Part shown: positions 11,420 through 19,590 of the stretch, piece after piece | Layout: the number at the start of each line of letters is the position of its first letter | Numbering within the stretch: position 1 is the stretch's first letter | Source of the DNA: Candidatus Avelusimicrobium pullarium | GTDB taxonomy: Bacteria; Elusimicrobiota; Elusimicrobia; Elusimicrobiales; Elusimicrobiaceae | Reading direction: 5' to 3' | Length of the DNA: 64,000 nucleotides | Assembly: GCA_944323745.1 (NCBI GenBank) | Contig: CALUTQ010000001.1 | Span: 1-64,000, forward strand | The notes under the pieces: generated by a model | Databases searched by the model: none | Told to the model about the DNA's origin: nothing | What the model saw: the letters and a program-made list of their open reading frames with translations, nothing else | Program-made: the position numbers and the translations under genes

Positions 11420-11428
11420 TGCTACAAT
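11420..11428 (+). promoter_or_regulatory. Putative extended -10 promoter of the structured RNA
   Basis: TGCTACAAT fits the extended -10 pattern (TGn followed by a -10-like hexamer). No good -35 is visible at 16-18 bp spacing. If used, transcription would start near 11,435, just before the folded region. Confidence 0.45.
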
Positions 11429-11434
11429 GAAAGT

Positions 11435-11680
11435 AACTTTTAAGGAGGACTGACATTTAACATTATCTTTAACATTTTTACCCTGGCTTAGTGCCGCACC
11501 AACGGCACGCTTTTACAAAAGTAAAAGGAAACCAATACTAAGAAGGCCAATTAGCCGCAAGAAGGTAGGAAGTCATGAGCCTGCCGACTTACGGTCAATG
11601 TTATTTGCCATTTTGGTAAGTAACTACGGCTGTGTTTCTAATGCGTATTGGTTTCCATTGGAAATAACAGCCGTTTTTTA
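11435..11680 (+). ncRNA. Candidate pseudoknotted structured RNA upstream of a DUF262 gene
   Basis: No coding frame of note occupies this region, but dense complementary segments do. In order: hairpin GTGCCG/CGGCAC (11,491-11,508); hairpin CTTTTAC/GTAAAAG with an AAAA loop (11,510-11,527); a perfect 12-bp long-range pair GGAAACCAATAC (11,527-11,538) with GTATTGGTTTCC (11,645-11,656); inside it an H-type pseudoknot geometry in which GGTAGG (11,564-11,569) pairs with CCTGCC (11,580-11,585) while loop AAGTC (11,570-11,574) pairs with GACTT (11,586-11,590); and a terminator stem ACGGCTGT/ACAGCCGT ending in six T. An SD-like AAGGAGG at 11,442 has no start codon after it. Only the + orientation has a U tract. 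Not a family I recognise (not tmRNA, 6S or RNase P). Confidence 0.6.
11626..11680 (+). terminator. Terminator/attenuator between the structured RNA and the DUF262 gene
   Basis: ACGGCTGT (11,626-11,633) pairs with ACAGCCGT (11,667-11,674), followed directly by a T tract. An inner TTTCC/GGAAA hairpin (11,652-11,664) extends it. The upstream 12-bp long-range stem uses overlapping bases and would compete; a second CGGCTGT at 11,702-11,708 could also capture ACAGCCG. This is the layout of an attenuator controlling readthrough into the gene at 11,766. Confidence 0.6.
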
Positions 11681-11765
11681 TTGCCATCCTGTTTGACTTC
11701 CCGGCTGTTCTTAGCGATAATACGTTGTCGCCCAATCAATTCGACATAACTGAGGAAAAAGGAAA

Positions 11766-13556
11766 ATGAATACCCAATTATTTGATAAGGACCAACTAAA
11801 CATTGAAGAAATTTTTAAAAAATTTTATGAAGTACCAGACTACCAGCGTGAATATGTATGGCGAAAAGCAAATGTATTAGCTTTGCTAAATGATATTTAT
11901 TGCGCATTCAAAGAAAATGCGCAAAATGCCTATTTCATTGGGACCACTGTCGTAGCAACTAATCTAAAGAGCTCCACTTTAGAAGTCATTGACGGACAGC
12001 AACGTTTAACCACTTTGTTCATTTTATTAAGTATATTTACACAAAAAGTTACAAACGATCGTCAACAATTCCTTAATGACCTTATTAAAAATAAAAGCTG
12101 GGACTCATTTGGGGATTTATCCTCACGTTATCATCTTAATCTCAATTATGCCAATGCACAAAAATTCTTAGAAATAATTAACACGCAACCGAGTAATCTT
12201 ATCAAGCAATTGCATTCCGATTATGGGAACCGACTGCCAGACACTATTAAAAATCTATATAATGCTTATCAACAAATTAATGATTTTTTAGATGAACATT
12301 GTTCATCCGCAGAAGAGCTTTTCGCTTTTATTACATACACACTGCATCAAGTTTTTGTACTGCAAATCACGACAGATATCAACAAAGCTTTACAAATCTT
12401 TGAGACCATTAATGAGCGCGGTGTCGGGTTAAATCCACTAGATTTGATTAAAAACCGTTTGTTCTGTCATATCGATAAAAAAGATTTTAAAATCCTAAAA
12501 GACAAATGGCAAGAAATATTCAAACTGTTTCGCAAAAATGAAACCCATAAATTACGTTTTATCCGTTATTTTCTCATGGCCAATTTCCCGGATAAAATTG
12601 ATTCCGGCATTTATAAAAATGGCATCCTAAGAACCGATGATATCTTTGACTTTACCTCTAATCTCGAGGATATATCTAAGCCCCAGGATTTTTTACAAAA
12701 TTTATATCAAGCTGCCCTCGATTACAATGGTTTTCTGGAAGGGAAACTTAACGGTGAAGACAACGAACATTTGCAGAATATTAACACCTTAAATGGAGGG
12801 CTGTCTACATACATTATTGCCTTGCTGTCCGCCAAAAATTTGCCTTTGCCTATTCTAAAACATTTTATTAAGCAAGTAGAATCTTTTATGTTCTTCTATA
12901 TCATACCAGGGAATAATACTAATGCGTTAGAGCGTGAGTGTGCCAGCTGGGCAAAGCAACTATATAGTTTGAGCAAAATACAAAATGAAGAAGAACAACT
13001 TTCCTCATATAATAAATTTATTACTAGCGCTTTAATAACTCCTACTCAGCAAAGAATGAATAATTTTGATGATTATTTTAGGCGTCTACAAATGGGAAAA
13101 AATAGAACACGTACTCGTTATATTTTGAATAAAATTAGTCTTTATGTACAAGAGAAATGGAATGGCTGCCATGTATCCAACAACTTATTCTCGGGGTTGG
13201 ATATTGAGCACATTTTACCCAACCATCCAAAAGAAGGGTTAAGAGAAGCGTTTGGAGTAGAAATATATGAAGAATATAAAAATAGGCTAGGAAATCTTAC
13301 CTTATTAGAAGCCCCGCTTAACAGATCGTTAGGGAATGATTTCTTTGAAATCAAAAAGCAAACTTACACAACAAGCAATTGTGTATTTACGAAAAGCATT
13401 ATTGCCCTCCCAAACACAACCGGGGCAACAAGTCAACATGGGCAATTTTTCCGACATATCCCCCATTGGGATACTTGGACAAAGGAATCCATCGAGCAAC
13501 GCCAAGAATTACTATTAAAATTAACCAAAGAGGTGTGGCCCTTAACTACTTATTAA
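11766..13556 (+). CDS. GmrSD-like DUF262/DUF1524 restriction protein
   Basis: A 596-residue protein starting 5 bp after AAGG-rich sequence. The N-terminal DUF262 domain has the nucleotide-binding signature DGQQRLTTL (about residues 76-84) and an upstream YQREYVW motif. A helical middle follows. The C-terminal DUF1524 part has an HNH-like nuclease core (DIEHILPNHP, then NRLGNLTLLE and a later Asn). Single-chain GmrS-GmrD fusions of this kind act as NTP-dependent type IV enzymes against modified DNA. It lies just downstream of the candidate structured RNA and attenuator, with the orphan packaging operon diverging on the other side. All key motifs are present. Specificity is unknown. Confidence 0.88.
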   Translation: MNTQLFDKDQLNIEEIFKKFYEVPDYQREYVWRKANVLALLNDIYCAFKENAQNAYFIGTTVVATNLKSSTLEVIDGQQRLTTLFILLSIFTQKVTNDRQQFLNDLIKNKSWDSFGDLSSRYHLNLNYANAQKFLEIINTQPSNLIKQLHSDYGNRLPDTIKNLYNAYQQINDFLDEHCSSAEELFAFITYTLHQVFVLQITTDINKALQIFETINERGVGLNPLDLIKNRLFCHIDKKDFKILKDKWQEIFKLFRKNETHKLRFIRYFLMANFPDKIDSGIYKNGILRTDDIFDFTSNLEDISKPQDFLQNLYQAALDYNGFLEGKLNGEDNEHLQNINTLNGGLSTYIIALLSAKNLPLPILKHFIKQVESFMFFYIIPGNNTNALERECASWAKQLYSLSKIQNEEEQLSSYNKFITSALITPTQQRMNNFDDYFRRLQMGKNRTRTRYILNKISLYVQEKWNGCHVSNNLFSGLDIEHILPNHPKEGLREAFGVEIYEEYKNRLGNLTLLEAPLNRSLGNDFFEIKKQTYTTSNCVFTKSIIALPNTTGATSQHGQFFRHIPHWDTWTKESIEQRQELLLKLTKEVWPLTTY

Positions 13557-13800: not shown

Positions 13801-15777
13801 TTATTTCCAATCCGATGGAATTAATTTTTCTTGATTCGTTTCATTCCAACGAGCAGCCAAATGGACATTAGGCAAATCTCCCCACAAGCTTTCATCTGCA
13901 TGTTCTAAAATTATTACTTGCAAGGATGGTGATAATTTTTCGACAACAGCACTAATTAAACTAAAGATCTTTCTAACCGCTTGTTCATCTGTTGTATATT
14001 CTGTTGAAATATCTTTTTTAGTAATTACTTTTGCTTCTTTTTCTTTGGTGGGGAAATATACCTGGCTCGGTTGATCAAATATTAAAAAAGAAGGAACAAA
14101 ACTTTGAAAAGTAGAGAAATATTCTGCTAAAGCAAGCATAGCAGCAATATGATAAGATAGCCAGTTTGCGCCACTACCTAACATGCTGAGATATCGCCGT
14201 TGCATTTCGTCAGTTTGTATAACTACTGTAAGAGCTTTCCAATCAAATTCTGCTTTAGAATCAGGATATTCAATATTTAGTTGAGAAGCATATGAAGTGA
14301 GTCTATCTGCCAAGAATTTCCTAACTTTTTCTCTCTTCTCTTTTATTTCTTTCTCAGAAATAATATCTTGTATATCAGCAAGCTGAGATTGAAGCTGATT
14401 AATTTTTGTATCTAAACCCGCACTATCTCCAATATCTCTATACAACTCAATAAACTCCTCAATACCTCCTATTAATCTAGCCACTTCTCCTTGTGTTAAC
14501 AAATCTTGATGCTTTTCTTTGGACTCGCTTTCTAAAGCAGAAATTTGCCTTTGTATCTTGCGCAAACTAATTTTTTTAGAGGCGACATCTTTTTCAACTT
14601 CAGCTAACTGTTTAATAAAATTAGATGAAGATAAATCTAACACCTCTAAAGAAGCTTCTGTTTCTCTCAGAGCCTCTTGTAATCTTTTTAGCGATTCATT
14701 CTCTTGTTTAACAATCGAATGACAGAAAGGGCACTTTTCTTGAGATATTTTTAAATTCTCGGAAATATACAAACGATCTGCTTGAATCTGAAATGTTTCA
14801 CGAAACATACCATTACAACTTGTAGTATTAATTAATGTATGCAATCGAGTTTCTGTGCAGAGTAATTCTCTCAAAGCTAAAGCTAATGTTTGTTCTTCCT
14901 TCTTCAAAAGGAGTAGTTTTTCATTAACAAGATTTTCCGTATCCTTCACCCCAAAAGGATTTTTCTTATAGTTTTCCACAACTTCTAATAAAAGGTTAAA
15001 CATTTCTTTACTTTTCATGTTTTGATGAATTGTTTTATCCAACAGACCAGCTCTAGTAGCCAAAAGTAATTTATCAAGCAAATCTTCTTTCTTGCTTTCT
15101 GCTATTTTTTTCAATTCTTTTTTTTCTTTATAACAGGCATCCAATTCCTCTTGTATTTGTTTGATTTTCTCTCTATTCTGCATGATTGTAGCATCAATAA
15201 TATCTAATACCAATTCTGAAATTACCTTTAATTTTTCTCTATGTTCAAATGATTCTGTTTTAAAAAACAGACTAGTTGGATTGGCAATAATATATTGAGG
15301 TTGATATAAAAAAGCTGCTAAATCTCGAAATCCTGCTCTATTCTTAAATCCATTTTTTTCATCTGCACTTCCTTCTTTAAAATCCATTTCAGGTAAATTC
15401 GCCAGAAGATCCAATCTTTTTTTAAATTCCGCAAAAGGAATATTAGCAGTTAACACTTCTGGCACACAAATATCTTTGCCAATATCCAAAAATACTTCCA
15501 TCTTAGAAATATCAGGATTTCGCCGCGCAACAATTAGCGTTTCATTGTTATCAAGAGAACATACCATTCCAAACCAATCAACTTTTTGCAAAATGATTCC
15601 AGATGGTATTTGAGATGAATCGGAACCCAAAATATAATCGATGATAAAAATAATAGCAGTTTTACCAGTCAAGGAATTACCCACAATAAAATTTATCTTC
15701 CCTTCTTGAAAAGCAATCTCCCTATATTTCTGTTCAATTTTTGAAGTAATAAATAATTTTTTGATTTGCATTTTCAT
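13801..15777 (-). CDS. ABC-3C system ATPase, DUF3732 family
   Basis: A 658-residue SMC/Rad50-like ATPase. Walker A GNSLTGKTA lies at about residues 33-41; long coiled coils surround a CxxC hook (CPFCHSIV, about 350); the C-terminal lobe has an ABC-signature-like LGSGANWLSYHIA and Walker B LIFDQPSQVYFP, the form typical of DUF3732. DUF3732 ATPases are the motor of three-component ABC (ABC-3C) conflict systems, in which the ATPase is thought to sense invasion and license the effector. It is last in a three-gene leftward operon and begins at the stop of the small middle component. Motifs look intact. Assignment to ABC-3C rests on both the family and the gene order. Confidence 0.88.
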   Translation of the reverse strand: MKMQIKKLFITSKIEQKYREIAFQEGKINFIVGNSLTGKTAIIFIIDYILGSDSSQIPSGIILQKVDWFGMVCSLDNNETLIVARRNPDISKMEVFLDIGKDICVPEVLTANIPFAEFKKRLDLLANLPEMDFKEGSADEKNGFKNRAGFRDLAAFLYQPQYIIANPTSLFFKTESFEHREKLKVISELVLDIIDATIMQNREKIKQIQEELDACYKEKKELKKIAESKKEDLLDKLLLATRAGLLDKTIHQNMKSKEMFNLLLEVVENYKKNPFGVKDTENLVNEKLLLLKKEEQTLALALRELLCTETRLHTLINTTSCNGMFRETFQIQADRLYISENLKISQEKCPFCHSIVKQENESLKRLQEALRETEASLEVLDLSSSNFIKQLAEVEKDVASKKISLRKIQRQISALESESKEKHQDLLTQGEVARLIGGIEEFIELYRDIGDSAGLDTKINQLQSQLADIQDIISEKEIKEKREKVRKFLADRLTSYASQLNIEYPDSKAEFDWKALTVVIQTDEMQRRYLSMLGSGANWLSYHIAAMLALAEYFSTFQSFVPSFLIFDQPSQVYFPTKEKEAKVITKKDISTEYTTDEQAVRKIFSLISAVVEKLSPSLQVIILEHADESLWGDLPNVHLAARWNETNQEKLIPSDWK

Positions 15778-15778
15778 A

Positions 15779-16240
15779 TCATTTCACCATAGTTATCCGA
15801 ATAATTTGAGATAAAGATAACTTTTCAAACCATTTACCTAATTTAATTCCTTGTGTTCCCATATCCCGAACCACTTCCTGAGGGGTAATATTTATTTTGA
15901 GAGGAACAATCCTATCTTTTCCATCATATTTGATAAGCCCAGTTCTAGCTGCCAATCCCAAGGATTCAAATGTTAATTCTTTATACAAAGACACTCCCTC
16001 ATTAATCTGTATAAATTCATTTGGAGTAAGCTTTGAAATTAAATTATAAAGTGTAGATGTTGCTTTTGTAGCTTTTACTTTCTGATATATTTTCTGATTA
16101 AGTAACATAGGTATTACAAGAAATAAAAGATGCATAGAAACAAATGGGTGCTGCTTAGAACAGTAACCTAATGCTGTTTTCCAAATTAAATAGGCCCCAA
16201 TTGCTGGATTCTGTATATTTTTAATTGTTTCCCGAATCAT
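15779..16240 (-). CDS. ABC-3C system middle component
   Basis: A 153-residue protein overlapping the upstream effector gene by 20 bp and abutting the ATPase gene. It has no enzymatic motif; the sequence suggests a compact helical and winged-helix-like fold (LGLAARTGLIKYDGKDRIVPL). Small three-component ABC system middle components sit in exactly this position and are thought to bridge effector and ATPase. I assign it mainly by position, size and overlap, with moderate support from its composition. The subtype number cannot be given from sequence alone. Confidence 0.8.
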   Translation of the reverse strand: MIRETIKNIQNPAIGAYLIWKTALGYCSKQHPFVSMHLLFLVIPMLLNQKIYQKVKATKATSTLYNLISKLTPNEFIQINEGVSLYKELTFESLGLAARTGLIKYDGKDRIVPLKINITPQEVVRDMGTQGIKLGKWFEKLSLSQIIRITMVK

Positions 16241-17387
16241 TTTTTAATTCTCGTTCATAGTCTGGATGCCAACCAATTAACAATCTGTCTGCTAAATCTT
16301 GACAAGTTCCTCTAACAAAAAGTCGTGGGGAATCTTGTCCTTGGAGTTTTGTTTTTAAAAGCAACGTTTTATTATAAATCAAACGTCCTGCGCGTTTTTT
16401 ATCTAAAGACTCTGGCGGAAAAGAATTAACCGTTATATCTTTGATATTTTTCCAATCAGACTGGATCTCTTTACGAAAAATTTGATAACTTTCCTCGTTC
16501 ACTACTCCATCAGCCGCCATCCTTGCCCAGGTATTTCCTGCGGTAACAAAATCAATGATGGCTAATTCTTTGTCTTTATTAGAACACTCAATTAGATTAA
16601 GTTGCTCAATAAAAGTACTTTTTTTATATTTTTCTTTATCACTTTCTGAACAAATATCTTCCGAAGCCAAGGAATAAGAAGAAAGAGGATCGGCTTTTAA
16701 TCTATTCCAATAACTCAAATATTCTTTTCGAAATTCATTCCGAGGAACAGCCATTACTCGACCTTGTTTAAATTGTTCACGAATAAAATCACAAATCCAT
16801 CCTAACAAATGAACTTTAACTTGATTTGCTTGAATAGGATTAGGAATAGCATCTTTAATGAGTTTATCAAGGCCATCGGGTTTCGTTGGATCTTCATGAA
16901 TAAACTCAAAATTGGTTATAATTAATATCAAAAGAGGATTCTGAATTAAATTGAGAATTTTATCCTTATTTTTCTTTAACCTAGAACTATTTAATAAACT
17001 CTGTGTTTTCAAAATAGCTTCTTGTGCCTGAGCTTTAGAACTAGCGTTATGGTATTGTAAAATTAACTCGCCTGGAGATTTCTTAGTGCTACAACAATAC
17101 ACAAACTTAAGACGATTCCTTGATTTTGGATAACTATTCATTACTTGTATCCAATTTTCGATAGTTTTCCAAAAAGCAGGAGACCAATTCGAAGCCGGTG
17201 TCGCCGTGGTATATTGCTTTGCTTGTTCTAAAGTTATCAGACCATTCTTCTTTTTAAGAGCAAGATCATCATAATGTTCAAGACAAATGATATCCCCGTC
17301 ATCACCACCCCAAAGACGAGAAAACAATCGGCATATCTGGTAATAATATCCCTGAAAAGAAGCAGGGACACTAGATGAATAACTCAT
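16221..17387 (-). CDS. ABC-3C system effector with N-terminal Cap4/DUF4297-like nuclease fold
   Basis: A 388-residue first gene of the operon. The N-terminus (ASFQGYYYQICRLFSRLW ... ICLEHYDDLALKK ... ITLEQAKQY) resembles the restriction-nuclease-like domain of DUF4297/Cap4 proteins: an initial helix with GY-YQ, then E-x2-DD, then E/Q-x-K. In those families this domain cuts DNA. The C-terminal half is helical with a final region typical of ABC-3C proteins. Together with the next two genes it makes a complete ABC-3C conflict system. The active-site core is present by eye (E-DD-EQAK) but the match is distant, so nuclease activity is inference. Confidence 0.78.
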   Translation of the reverse strand: MSYSSSVPASFQGYYYQICRLFSRLWGGDDGDIICLEHYDDLALKKKNGLITLEQAKQYTTATPASNWSPAFWKTIENWIQVMNSYPKSRNRLKFVYCCSTKKSPGELILQYHNASSKAQAQEAILKTQSLLNSSRLKKNKDKILNLIQNPLLILIITNFEFIHEDPTKPDGLDKLIKDAIPNPIQANQVKVHLLGWICDFIREQFKQGRVMAVPRNEFRKEYLSYWNRLKADPLSSYSLASEDICSESDKEKYKKSTFIEQLNLIECSNKDKELAIIDFVTAGNTWARMAADGVVNEESYQIFRKEIQSDWKNIKDITVNSFPPESLDKKRAGRLIYNKTLLLKTKLQGQDSPRLFVRGTCQDLADRLLIGWHPDYERELKNDSGNN

Positions 17388-17499: not shown

Positions 17500-17740
17500 A
17501 ATTCCCTGTTATGATTTTAGGGAATTTGGGCAAATTATACAGGGGCGGCACTATACAGAAGGCCGTCCCTTTCCTTATGTAATAGGGCTAGAAACCCACC
17601 AATTCCCTGTATTTTCCCTGTTTATCAGGGAATTTATCTAATTTTTGAATACATTCTCTTATTATCTTTATATCCGCTTGCAAAGCAGATACAAACGCTC
17701 TTTTGGATAAAGCGAGATATTCCCTGTTTAGCACAGGGAA
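17500..17740. repeat. Three inverted repeats with TTCCCTG/CAGGGAA-type arms at the recombinase 3' end
   Basis: AATTCCCT/AGGGAATT at 17,500-17,526, AATTCCCTG/CAGGGAATT at 17,601-17,634 and TTCCCTG/CAGGGAA at 17,720-17,740 share the same arms at roughly 100-bp spacing. They overlap the end of the recombinase gene and the space before the ABC-3C operon. Possible roles are recombinase or regulator binding sites or an attachment region. Confidence 0.5.
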
Positions 17741-19406
17741 AAGCTATCTTTTGCGCGGGATTCGGATAGAAATGAGGTACCGGCAATTGGTTAGCACCCC
17801 AATAATTTCTGCTACAACTTTTAGATGCGCCTTGAGCGCTTTTATCGTCGTAGATTTCCAAACAGCCCTTATTTAAAAGGGCTGTTTTTTTATCCTTTTC
17901 CGCTTCTTTGGCTTCTGTCTGGGCCAAATGCTTGGCTTCATAAATGGCCTTAAACGGCTCTTTATACTCCACCACAATTTGATTATCTTGCGTAAGCAGG
18001 AACTTGGCCCCTACCGCACGCAATAAGTCCGCCTTGCCGTAATTATCCGCTTCCCGGTAACACTTTTTAAGCCCGGACAGCATAGCCAGCCCCTGTACAG
18101 CCCGCTGGGCCCCTTCGGCACTGCCCGTACAGCGGGCGAGTCCTCCCTCAATACGTTCCCGTTCTTCCTGTAATTGGCGGTTTTTGGCCTGATAGGCCGC
18201 ATCGGTTATTTTACGGTCCAAATACATATCCAGCAAGGCTTCTATACGGCCATTTGCGCGCTCCAGTTCCTTTTGCAATATCTGCTTAGTACCTGCATTA
18301 ATTTGGTTTGCATGTAAACCTTTCTGCTTAAGCCCCTTACAAAGCACCTCTACCACTTCTTTGGGCAGTTCAATGTCTTGTATAGTATCTGCCAATTGTT
18401 CGGCCAAGCGGGCTTCCGTCAAATACCCGCTCTTTTTATGGTCTTTATTGTAATGCGCACACCGATAATACAAATACTTATGCTTGGCTTTGGCCCCCAA
18501 TATATAATGCCCGCAATGTTCGCAGATAATTAAGCGGTTAAAGGGATAATTGTGCCGTGTATCATAGCGGTGGGCCTTAGCGGCCAGGGCTTCTTGGGTT
18601 TTATCCCATACAGCTTTGCTAACAAGCGACGGATGCGTCCCTTGGTAAAGCTTTTTACCCCACTTAAATACACCGTAATAAAAGGGAGAATGAAGCATTT
18701 TGGATATACTTTTTAACGAGACTCGGTTCCCCCTGCTTTTGGTTCTAAGCCCTTTACCGTAAAAGATTTCTTCCAACTCTTCCAAAGAATACTTGCCCGT
18801 AGAGGCATATTCAAACAGTTCCGTCACCAACGGGGCATTAACCGGGTCCGCTTCGATAATGGACTCTTTCTCTTTCGTAGTTACGTTTATATACCCCAGC
18901 GGCGCATTGCCCGGATAAATGCCCTGTTCGGCCTTTTCCACCATACCCATACGGGTTTTATAGGCAATGTCGTTAGATAACTTTTTGGAAGCCGCTACTT
19001 CCACATCCATCATAAATTCCTTATTGGAATCCAGCGTCTGGTCATTTAACAACTGGTTGGTTCGGGAAAAATGAATACTTTTGTGGTATTCCCGGATTAA
19101 GCGGATTATCCGTATTTTGTCGGCATCGTTACGGGTCATACGGTCTACCACGTCAAAGATCACGTGTTTTACGCTGTCATTACGCTTTACAAAGTCCAGC
19201 ATGGCGCTAAACTCCTTGCGTTCTTTCTTACCCCAGGCAGATTCCTGTACTTTCCACATTTTTACTATCTGCAAATTATTTCGTTGAGCATACGAACGGG
19301 CCAACTTCTCCTGTGCGTCCAGGGAGTATCCATCTTCCTGCTTAATGCTGGAAACACGCAAAAAGATGACGGCTTTTTCTTGAAATTGATTTTCTTTATT
19401 TACCAT
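17634..19406 (-). CDS. Large serine recombinase/integrase
   Basis: I start it at the ATG at 19,406 (MVNKENQFQEKAVIFLRVSS), preceded by AAGGAAG; the longer frame to 19,478 lies inside the regulator gene. About 590 residues. The resolvase catalytic domain contains the nucleophile Ser in LRVSSIKQEDGYSLDAQ and a MTRNDADKIR segment; a recombinase domain (GNAPLGYIN ... LRTKSRG) and a zinc ribbon (CEHCGHYILG ... YYRCAH) follow, then a coiled coil. Such enzymes integrate and excise mobile elements. The last ~80 residues (after KKTALLNKG) are Cys/Tyr-rich, overlap repeats and a terminator on the other strand, and look like readthrough beyond the normal end. The start overlaps the Cro-like regulator by 11 bp. 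Confidence 0.92.
   Translation of the reverse strand: MVNKENQFQEKAVIFLRVSSIKQEDGYSLDAQEKLARSYAQRNNLQIVKMWKVQESAWGKKERKEFSAMLDFVKRNDSVKHVIFDVVDRMTRNDADKIRIIRLIREYHKSIHFSRTNQLLNDQTLDSNKEFMMDVEVAASKKLSNDIAYKTRMGMVEKAEQGIYPGNAPLGYINVTTKEKESIIEADPVNAPLVTELFEYASTGKYSLEELEEIFYGKGLRTKSRGNRVSLKSISKMLHSPFYYGVFKWGKKLYQGTHPSLVSKAVWDKTQEALAAKAHRYDTRHNYPFNRLIICEHCGHYILGAKAKHKYLYYRCAHYNKDHKKSGYLTEARLAEQLADTIQDIELPKEVVEVLCKGLKQKGLHANQINAGTKQILQKELERANGRIEALLDMYLDRKITDAAYQAKNRQLQEERERIEGGLARCTGSAEGAQRAVQGLAMLSGLKKCYREADNYGKADLLRAVGAKFLLTQDNQIVVEYKEPFKAIYEAKHLAQTEAKEAEKDKKTALLNKGCLEIYDDKSAQGASKSCSRNYWGANQLPVPHFYPNPAQKIAFPCAKQGISRFIQKSVCICFASGYKDNKRMYSKIR
17725..17799. repeat. Direct repeat, left copy (right copy at 41,966-42,041)
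   Basis: From TGTTTAGCAC to GGTTAGCACCC this 75-bp segment is about 90% identical by eye to 41,966-42,041, in the same orientation. It lies in the unusual 3' tail of the recombinase gene. Its partner lies at the right edge of the accessory region, so the pair could be attachment-site arms or the tail of a second, lost recombinase gene. Confidence 0.75.
17861..17891 (+). terminator. Rho-independent terminator on the + strand, inside the recombinase 3' tail
   Basis: AACAGCCCTT and AAGGGCTGTT form a 10-bp stem with an ATTTAA loop, followed by T5 on the + strand. It points against the recombinase gene, so it may end transcripts entering from outside, or hint that this part of the open frame is not normally protein-coding. 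Confidence 0.55.
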
Positions 19407-19590
19407 ACTGCACTTCCTTATCTTGTAAAAGTTGTTTAATCTGATATACCTGTAATTTTTGGGGTCTGGCGTGGCCATTTAACCACCTGTTTACCGATAC
19501 AAAGGATACGCCCAATTTACGGGCTAAATCCTGCTGTGTAATACGATGTTTCAATCTGTATTCTTCTAGTTGAATGATTATATTATCCAT
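19396..19590 (-). CDS. Cro/C1-type helix-turn-helix regulator of the recombinase element
   Basis: Start chosen at the ATG at 19,590 (MDNIIIQLEEYRLKHRITQQ), giving 64 residues, with AAAGGGAT upstream. The helix-turn-helix is ITQQDLARKLGVSFVSVNRW, followed by LNGHARPQKLQVYQIKQLL. It overlaps the recombinase start by 11 bp, so the two are coupled. A close paralogue lies at 31,942-32,160 beside the Rep gene. The shared 18-bp palindromic repeat found upstream of both elements (20,091 and 33,328-33,570) is a candidate operator. Likely role: autorepression and control of element maintenance. Confidence 0.82.
   Translation of the reverse strand: MDNIIIQLEEYRLKHRITQQDLARKLGVSFVSVNRWLNGHARPQKLQVYQIKQLLQDKEVQYGK

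Follow-up and report, generated by a model that had tools for sequence, protein, structure and literature searches.

An RNA element in front of a GmrSD-type gene

The window, by which we mean the whole stretch of 64,000 nucleotides analysed here, holds a defence island between positions 2480 and 17387. This island comprises a type I restriction enzyme, an Mrr-type endonuclease, a GmrSD-type gene (HEC-06) and the Lamassu-like genes LmuB and LmuA; a serine recombinase adjoins it, and a ParB-methylase, DUF5681 and a terminase set accompany it. The features of the RNA that lies 5' of the GmrSD-type gene are collected in Table 1. From 11484 to 11679 this RNA has a minimum free energy (MFE) of -73.6 kcal/mol, compared with -47.0 +/- 4.3 kcal/mol for shuffled sequences (z = -6.25), and the wider segment from 11420 to 11690 reaches a z of -4.9 on the + strand versus -2.9 on the - strand.

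Table 1. Positions of the RNA element, its parts and neighbouring genes in the window
Feature	Position	Strand	Remarks	Basis
Extended -10 element, TGC TACAAT	11420-11428	+	TACAAT at 11423-11428	Read from sequence
AGGAGG-like motif	11442-11449	+	Near transcript 5' end, no ORF behind	
Strand a, UGGCUU	11484-11489	+	Partner b	MFE fold
Hairpin H1	11491-11508	+	Hairpin at equivalent place in the homologues read	Fold
Hairpin H2	11510-11527	+	Position kept in the homologues read	Fold
Long-range arm A	11527-11538	+	Partner A'	
Strand b, AGGCCA	11544-11549	+	Partner a or (via GGCC) c	
Hairpin P5	11554-11595	+	Apical loop 11570-11579, palindrome UCAUGA 11573-11578	
Hairpin H6	11600-11624	+	Covarying in seed alignment	MFE
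Terminator hairpin	11626-11674	+	Apical loop contains A'	
Terminator strand c, CGGCUGU	11627-11633	+		
Long-range arm A'	11645-11656	+	Inside terminator loop; exact 12-bp pair with A	
Terminator strand d, ACAGCCG	11667-11673	+		
Terminator U-tract, U6	11674-11679	+		Read from sequence
Second promoter-like site, TTGACT-N17-GATAAT	11693-11721	+	Between terminator and GmrSD gene	
GmrSD-type gene	11766-13556	+	3' of RNA; GmrSD_N and GmrSD_C; PADLOC HEC-06	
Lamassu-like LmuB	13801-15777			
Lamassu-like LmuA	16221-17387			
Serine recombinase	17634-19478		Adjoins the defence island	

Several of these parts had been pointed out in an earlier, sequence-only reading of this DNA, namely the extended -10 element before the RNA, two tight hairpins (H1 and H2), the exact 12-bp pair between A and A' and an intrinsic terminator (strands c and d followed by U6), and all of them are present in the sequence. 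Following the extended -10 element, transcription is expected to start near 11435. A TATAAT-like box is found 10-40 nt 5' of strand a in many homologues, and AGGAG or GGAGG occurs 15-65 nt 5' of strand a in 54 of 165 copies, with no evident ORF, as compared with 5 of 162 in a control window. In the window copy, strand b has alternative partners: MFE folding of the whole RNA pairs it with a, its GGCC against GGCU of that strand, whereas MFE folding of the core pairs its GGCC with GGCU of strand c, in a b:c helix of 4 bp only.

The same reading had missed the second promoter-like site, which agrees with the consensus at 10 of 12 positions. The GmrSD gene is thus likely to have a promoter of its own. 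Because this site is located 3' of the terminator, the RNA need not govern GmrSD, and in the window copy its control of the gene may be partial or lost. Related loci of the window lineage differ in how far they follow the window. L035 has the same upstream operon and RNA and a different gene downstream, its similarity to the window ending just past the terminator; in L004 similarity ends within P5, and in L006 after the first 26 nt. The three loci present one conserved promoter region with differing cargo behind it. No relative of the GmrSD gene was confirmed in viral contigs.

Homologues in the Elusimicrobiota

When 101 genomes (that of the host and 100 relatives) were searched with a 271-nt segment, two relatives had near copies along the full length, another had a partial copy of 168 nt and further relatives had weak matches to the core; on reading, these had a common architecture. 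A covariance model of the core, built from eight sequences, identified the element in 61 of the 66 genomes of the host genus at E <= 0.1 and in 60 of the 66 at E <= 0.001, the E-values being rough owing to a short calibration and the assemblies being fragmented. Across the phylum, 88 of 341 genomes were positive: 60 from the host genus, 18 from another genus within its family and 10 from a different family. Within a single genus the copy number per genome varies between 0 and at least 61, and two genomes carry at least 61 candidates each.

The covariance-model search covered the Elusimicrobiota, and other phyla were scanned by pattern. One such scan of 84,980 species genomes found no copy outside the Elusimicrobiota; it recovered 76 stretches. 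A few of these are titled 'uncultured bacterium' alone, and all others bear the name Elusimicrobia, Elusimicrobiales, Elusimicrobiaceae or Elusimicrobium; many of the record titles refer to rumen or other herbivore gut samples. Rfam 15 gave no family at or above the gathering threshold for the whole window, under relaxed settings neither the window region nor 20 homologous loci yielded a credible Rfam match to the element, and we found no paper describing the RNA family among the open-licence literature. The earlier impression, gained from the letters of the window, that no known RNA family is represented here agrees with the lack of any Rfam match. On the evidence of these searches, the RNA is one copy of a family that is absent from Rfam and so far found in the Elusimicrobiota only.

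A role as a phage packaging RNA, which had also been put forward, found no support. Few copies are located near a terminase operon, which among the loci read is a neighbour in the window lineage only; two pattern scans of viral contigs detected no copy, and phage and plasmid collections returned by DNA similarity short chance matches only.

Conserved helices and a long-range pseudoknot

Compensatory changes in homologues had been named beforehand as the test of a structured RNA at this place, and they were found in A:A', in a:b and in the terminator. The A:A' helix comprises about 10 bp in 167 of 169 copies. There are 148 distinct A sequences among the 167, and the region A pairs with its own partner over a median of 10 bp, compared with a mean of 6.2 bp with the region of another copy. 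In alignment A4, which holds 40 composites, each of fixed length and assembled from strands a, A, b, c, A' and d, the helices a:b, A:A' and the terminator together contain 89.9% standard pairs, and the covariation score is 0.427 as compared with 0.193 when shuffled (0 of 500) and at most 0.169 (about 0.17) when slid; these composites are joined excised segments, which are gap-free by construction and whose choice by equal length could favour regular copies.

Considered separately, A:A' exhibits double changes in 10 of 10 pairs. The a:b helix, which in homologues is CTGTTTTTGG/CCAAAAACAG, is paired in 99.8% of cells and includes compensated variants, whereas c:d with the upper stem is paired in 86.9% of cells and has double changes in 10 of 16 pairs. 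For b:c, 96.8% of cells are paired; the changes are mostly one-sided here, because c is nearly invariant. In L114 the strands a, b, c and d all differ together, and elsewhere a change in a goes with a fitting change in b. The copies are related, and counts of sequences such as these represent non-independent events. U-tracts are present behind the terminator in the homologous sequences read. On the + strand GU pairs outnumber AC by 169 to 20 in P5 and by 88 to 5 in H6, which points to a + strand RNA, the alignment being one that was fitted to the RNA model. By comparison between copies we have shown helices a:b, A:A', P5, H6, b:c and c:d and the + strand as the molecule that would fold.

The pseudoknot that is conserved arises where the long-range pair engages the terminator loop. 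A different, H-type pseudoknot had been proposed from the window. Its elements AAGTC and GACTT are indeed present, but among 50 copies that share this loop only 2, each belonging to the window lineage, have GACTT 3' of it, and the proposal is not upheld. In the homologues, GGAAGTCATGAGCC is an apical loop and CTT is part of the long stem below it. By its letters, the window copy is a divergent member of the family, in which the strands have acquired a new wording (UGGCUU / AGGCCA / CGGCUGU) and the pairing logic is kept.

Might the conserved unit be DNA rather than RNA? A hairpin-rich recombination or mobile module could be moved or exchanged before variable genes, the RNA being a by-product. 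The uneven copy number within one genus would suit such a module, as would orthologous flanks that enclose different RNA bodies: L018 and L067 compare at 0.95 upstream and at 0.49 in the RNA, and L039 and L059 at 0.71, 0.45 and 0.98 for flank, RNA body and flank. Moreover, L205 joins the A of one copy to the A' of another, and in some copies part of strand a recurs as its reverse complement behind the terminator. However, the excess of GU over AC on the + strand and the kept terminator are both constraints at the RNA level, no transposase was noticed, and single chimeras could stem from fragmented assemblies. The match of the tail to strand a, furthermore, is hardly copy-specific (22.2 for the own tail versus 21.2 for mismatched ones), lying above shuffles but hardly above the tails of other copies. 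We consider a mobile DNA module very unlikely. As to the individual loci, L018 versus L067 and L039 versus L059 look as if leaders had been exchanged as modules; in L205 A and A' do not match, its A' matches the A of L144 and its A is that of L181, as in a natural recombinant or an assembly chimera.

A palindromic loop on hairpin P5

The P5 loop contains a palindrome of at least 6 nt in 142 of 170 copies and of at least 4 nt in 165 of 170, and about 5.5% of shuffled P5 loops reach a 6-nt palindrome. When only distinct P5 loops are counted, 20 of 34 have at least 6 nt, whereas 2000 simulations averaged 1.9 such loops and never exceeded 8. The palindrome exists in many versions (TCATGA, TAATTA, TTATAA, TTCGAA, TTGCAA and others) within a recurrent geometry, whereby 2-3 nt are followed by the palindrome and then by 1-2 nt; the layouts 2+6+1 (73 copies) and 3+6+1 (46 copies) are common. 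The palindrome recurs elsewhere in its own RNA in 3 of 138 cases, with 2.5 expected by chance, and so has no intramolecular partner beyond chance. The simplest reading is that the palindromic P5 loops are evidence for homotypic kissing-loop dimers. Alternatively, something else could keep the loop palindromic, for instance a dimeric protein or a site at the DNA level such as a restriction site.

Genes behind the element

Among the 170 distinct copies, 156 have enough downstream flank, and in 149 of these (95%) a same-strand gene with a ribosome-binding-site-like motif is located 3' of the RNA, at a median distance of 84 nt from the end of the modelled core. In the control, an opposite-strand start is found within 400 nt upstream in 77 of 161 cases. 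The downstream gene has a pilin-like N-terminus in at least 112 copies. In genome G041, an N_methyl pilin domain follows 76-140 nt downstream in at least 30 of 43 copies, which is a lower bound, the count having used 80 of 114 N_methyl matches. The other cargo includes genes for an EcoRI-type methylase, a type III methyltransferase and a PLD-helicase as well as polysaccharide pyruvyl transferase, rhamnan synthesis and glycosyltransferase genes; besides pilins, the classes represented are restriction-modification, helicase, glycosylation and exported-protein genes.

The host genome has two copies of the RNA, one before GmrSD and one before a type III methyltransferase (G000:C1, at about 550 kb), and 106 N_methyl matches. 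These pilins do without the RNA, so that pilin control does not require it. Both G041 and G000 have more than 100 N_methyl pilin-type matches in a genome of 1.5-1.6 Mb. The link to defence that had been suggested for the window is partly borne out, whereas a purely defensive role is unsupported: both copies of the host genome precede defence genes, but most copies of the family precede pilin-like genes.

The position before genes also bears on the notion of a stand-alone dimeric small RNA, whose terminated product would be functional while the gene is read by leakage or from its own promoter. Such an RNA would account for the element having its own promoter-like sequence and a strong terminator, and for the second promoter between RNA and gene in the window, and RNA homo-oligomers are known (PMC12286853). 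Yet 95% of copies are placed directly before a same-strand gene, with scant room for another promoter, and the b:c pairing is kept, which would be needless in a stand-alone RNA. We judge this explanation decidedly improbable.

A model for leader-controlled transcription

How might the element act on the gene behind it? Its place 5' of a same-strand gene, its covarying terminator and a b:c antiterminator helix that is mutually exclusive with the alternative pairings are the hallmarks of an attenuator. We favour, with a probability of about 0.6, the reading that the RNA acts in cis as a leader attenuating transcription and carries a self-dimerising hairpin, the switching and the dimerisation being what we infer. 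Its parts would be arranged in the order promoter, a, H1, H2, A, b, P5 with its palindromic loop, H6, c, A', d with the U-tract, ribosome-binding site and gene. Strand b would be common to a and c, and strand c to b and d; that these shared strands are all maintained fits what an attenuator needs. We envision that formation of a:b leaves c to pair with d, so that transcription would stop. Conversely, formation of b:c, in a three-way junction with P5 and H6 that is extended by A:A', would preclude the terminator, and the gene would be read. In this model the palindromic P5 loop would also kiss its counterpart on a further copy, whereby leader transcripts, terminated or nascent, would influence one another and tilt the balance between the two outcomes.

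Folding energies for 152 copies can be compared with this scheme. Before d is made, the form with b:c and A:A' is lower in 151 copies, a comparison that is biased to b:c because A:A' was omitted from the a:b and terminator forms, nested folding being unable to hold it there; once d is made, the terminator form is lower in 133. No consistent upstream ORF that might encode a leader peptide was noticed when the 5' regions were read by eye.

A more far-reaching version of the attenuator model would have the leader sense its own kind. Orthogonal palindromes would pair loop to loop, A:A' would restrict folding or the exchange of strands to transcripts from one and the same gene, and the expression of pilin, surface and defence genes would follow the number of copies of the same leader that are present. 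We regard this extension as speculative and rather unlikely; if true, it would amount to an RNA-only self-recognition code for variable genes.

Alternatively, the element might be a classical riboswitch or a protein-controlled attenuator, in which the junction of b:c, P5 and H6 binds a small molecule or a protein and the palindrome is a docking or packing element instead of a dimer contact in cells. Unpaired positions of the junction are conserved (A30 0.94, A85 0.96, T87 0.88, A159 0.93), and many copies per genome before pilins recall the cyclic-dinucleotide riboswitches. On the other hand, no Rfam class matches, and the loop is kept as a palindrome in many versions rather than as a sequence, which is atypical of a ligand pocket. 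We consider a ligand-binding junction possible but doubtful, and continue with the self-dimerising attenuator leader.

Relation to known systems

The RNA family is new and of a known kind, the attenuator leader, fitted with what would be an unusual dimer module. Large, well supported and absent from Rfam, it at the least accompanies, and may control, genes for pilins, surface functions and defence in gut bacteria whose RNA biology has been little studied. With attenuators and riboswitches such as T-box and trp-type leaders it shares the 5' leader, the mutually exclusive helices and the intrinsic terminator before the gene. It differs from T-box and trp-type leaders in incorporating a palindromic loop module and a pseudoknot arm of hypervariable sequence, and in having no Rfam class and no consistent leader peptide. 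Cyclic-di-GMP and cGAMP riboswitches likewise occur as many leaders per genome before surface-appendage genes, but the Rfam scans gave no match to them in sequence or structure. The packaging RNA of phi29 is phage-encoded and oligomerises through loops, whereas the present family is not tied to terminase genes and most of its copies are found before chromosomal pilin genes.

For the P5 loop, the closest likeness in geometry is with the dimerisation loops of HIV-1 and retroviruses in general (for a review of their palindromes see PMC5874298), the dimer being a prediction in our case. The HIV-1 dimerisation initiation site has an apical loop with a 6-nt palindrome between short flanks and limited sequence variants (PMC5874298); in contrast, the palindromes described here belong to a bacterial mRNA leader and exist in far more versions, some of which consist of A and U alone. 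Functional RNA oligomers have rarely been observed in nature (PMC7357161). If the kissing loops work as they look, there would be many natural and apparently orthogonal dimer classes inside mRNA leaders, and RNA-level self-recognition in bacteria would become directly testable in vitro. Among bacterial RNAs, OLE, ROOL and GOLLD form homo-oligomers via kissing loops, with support from covariation (PMC12286853). Those RNAs are large and stand-alone, whereas the members of this family would be leaders of about 200-245 nt placed directly before genes.
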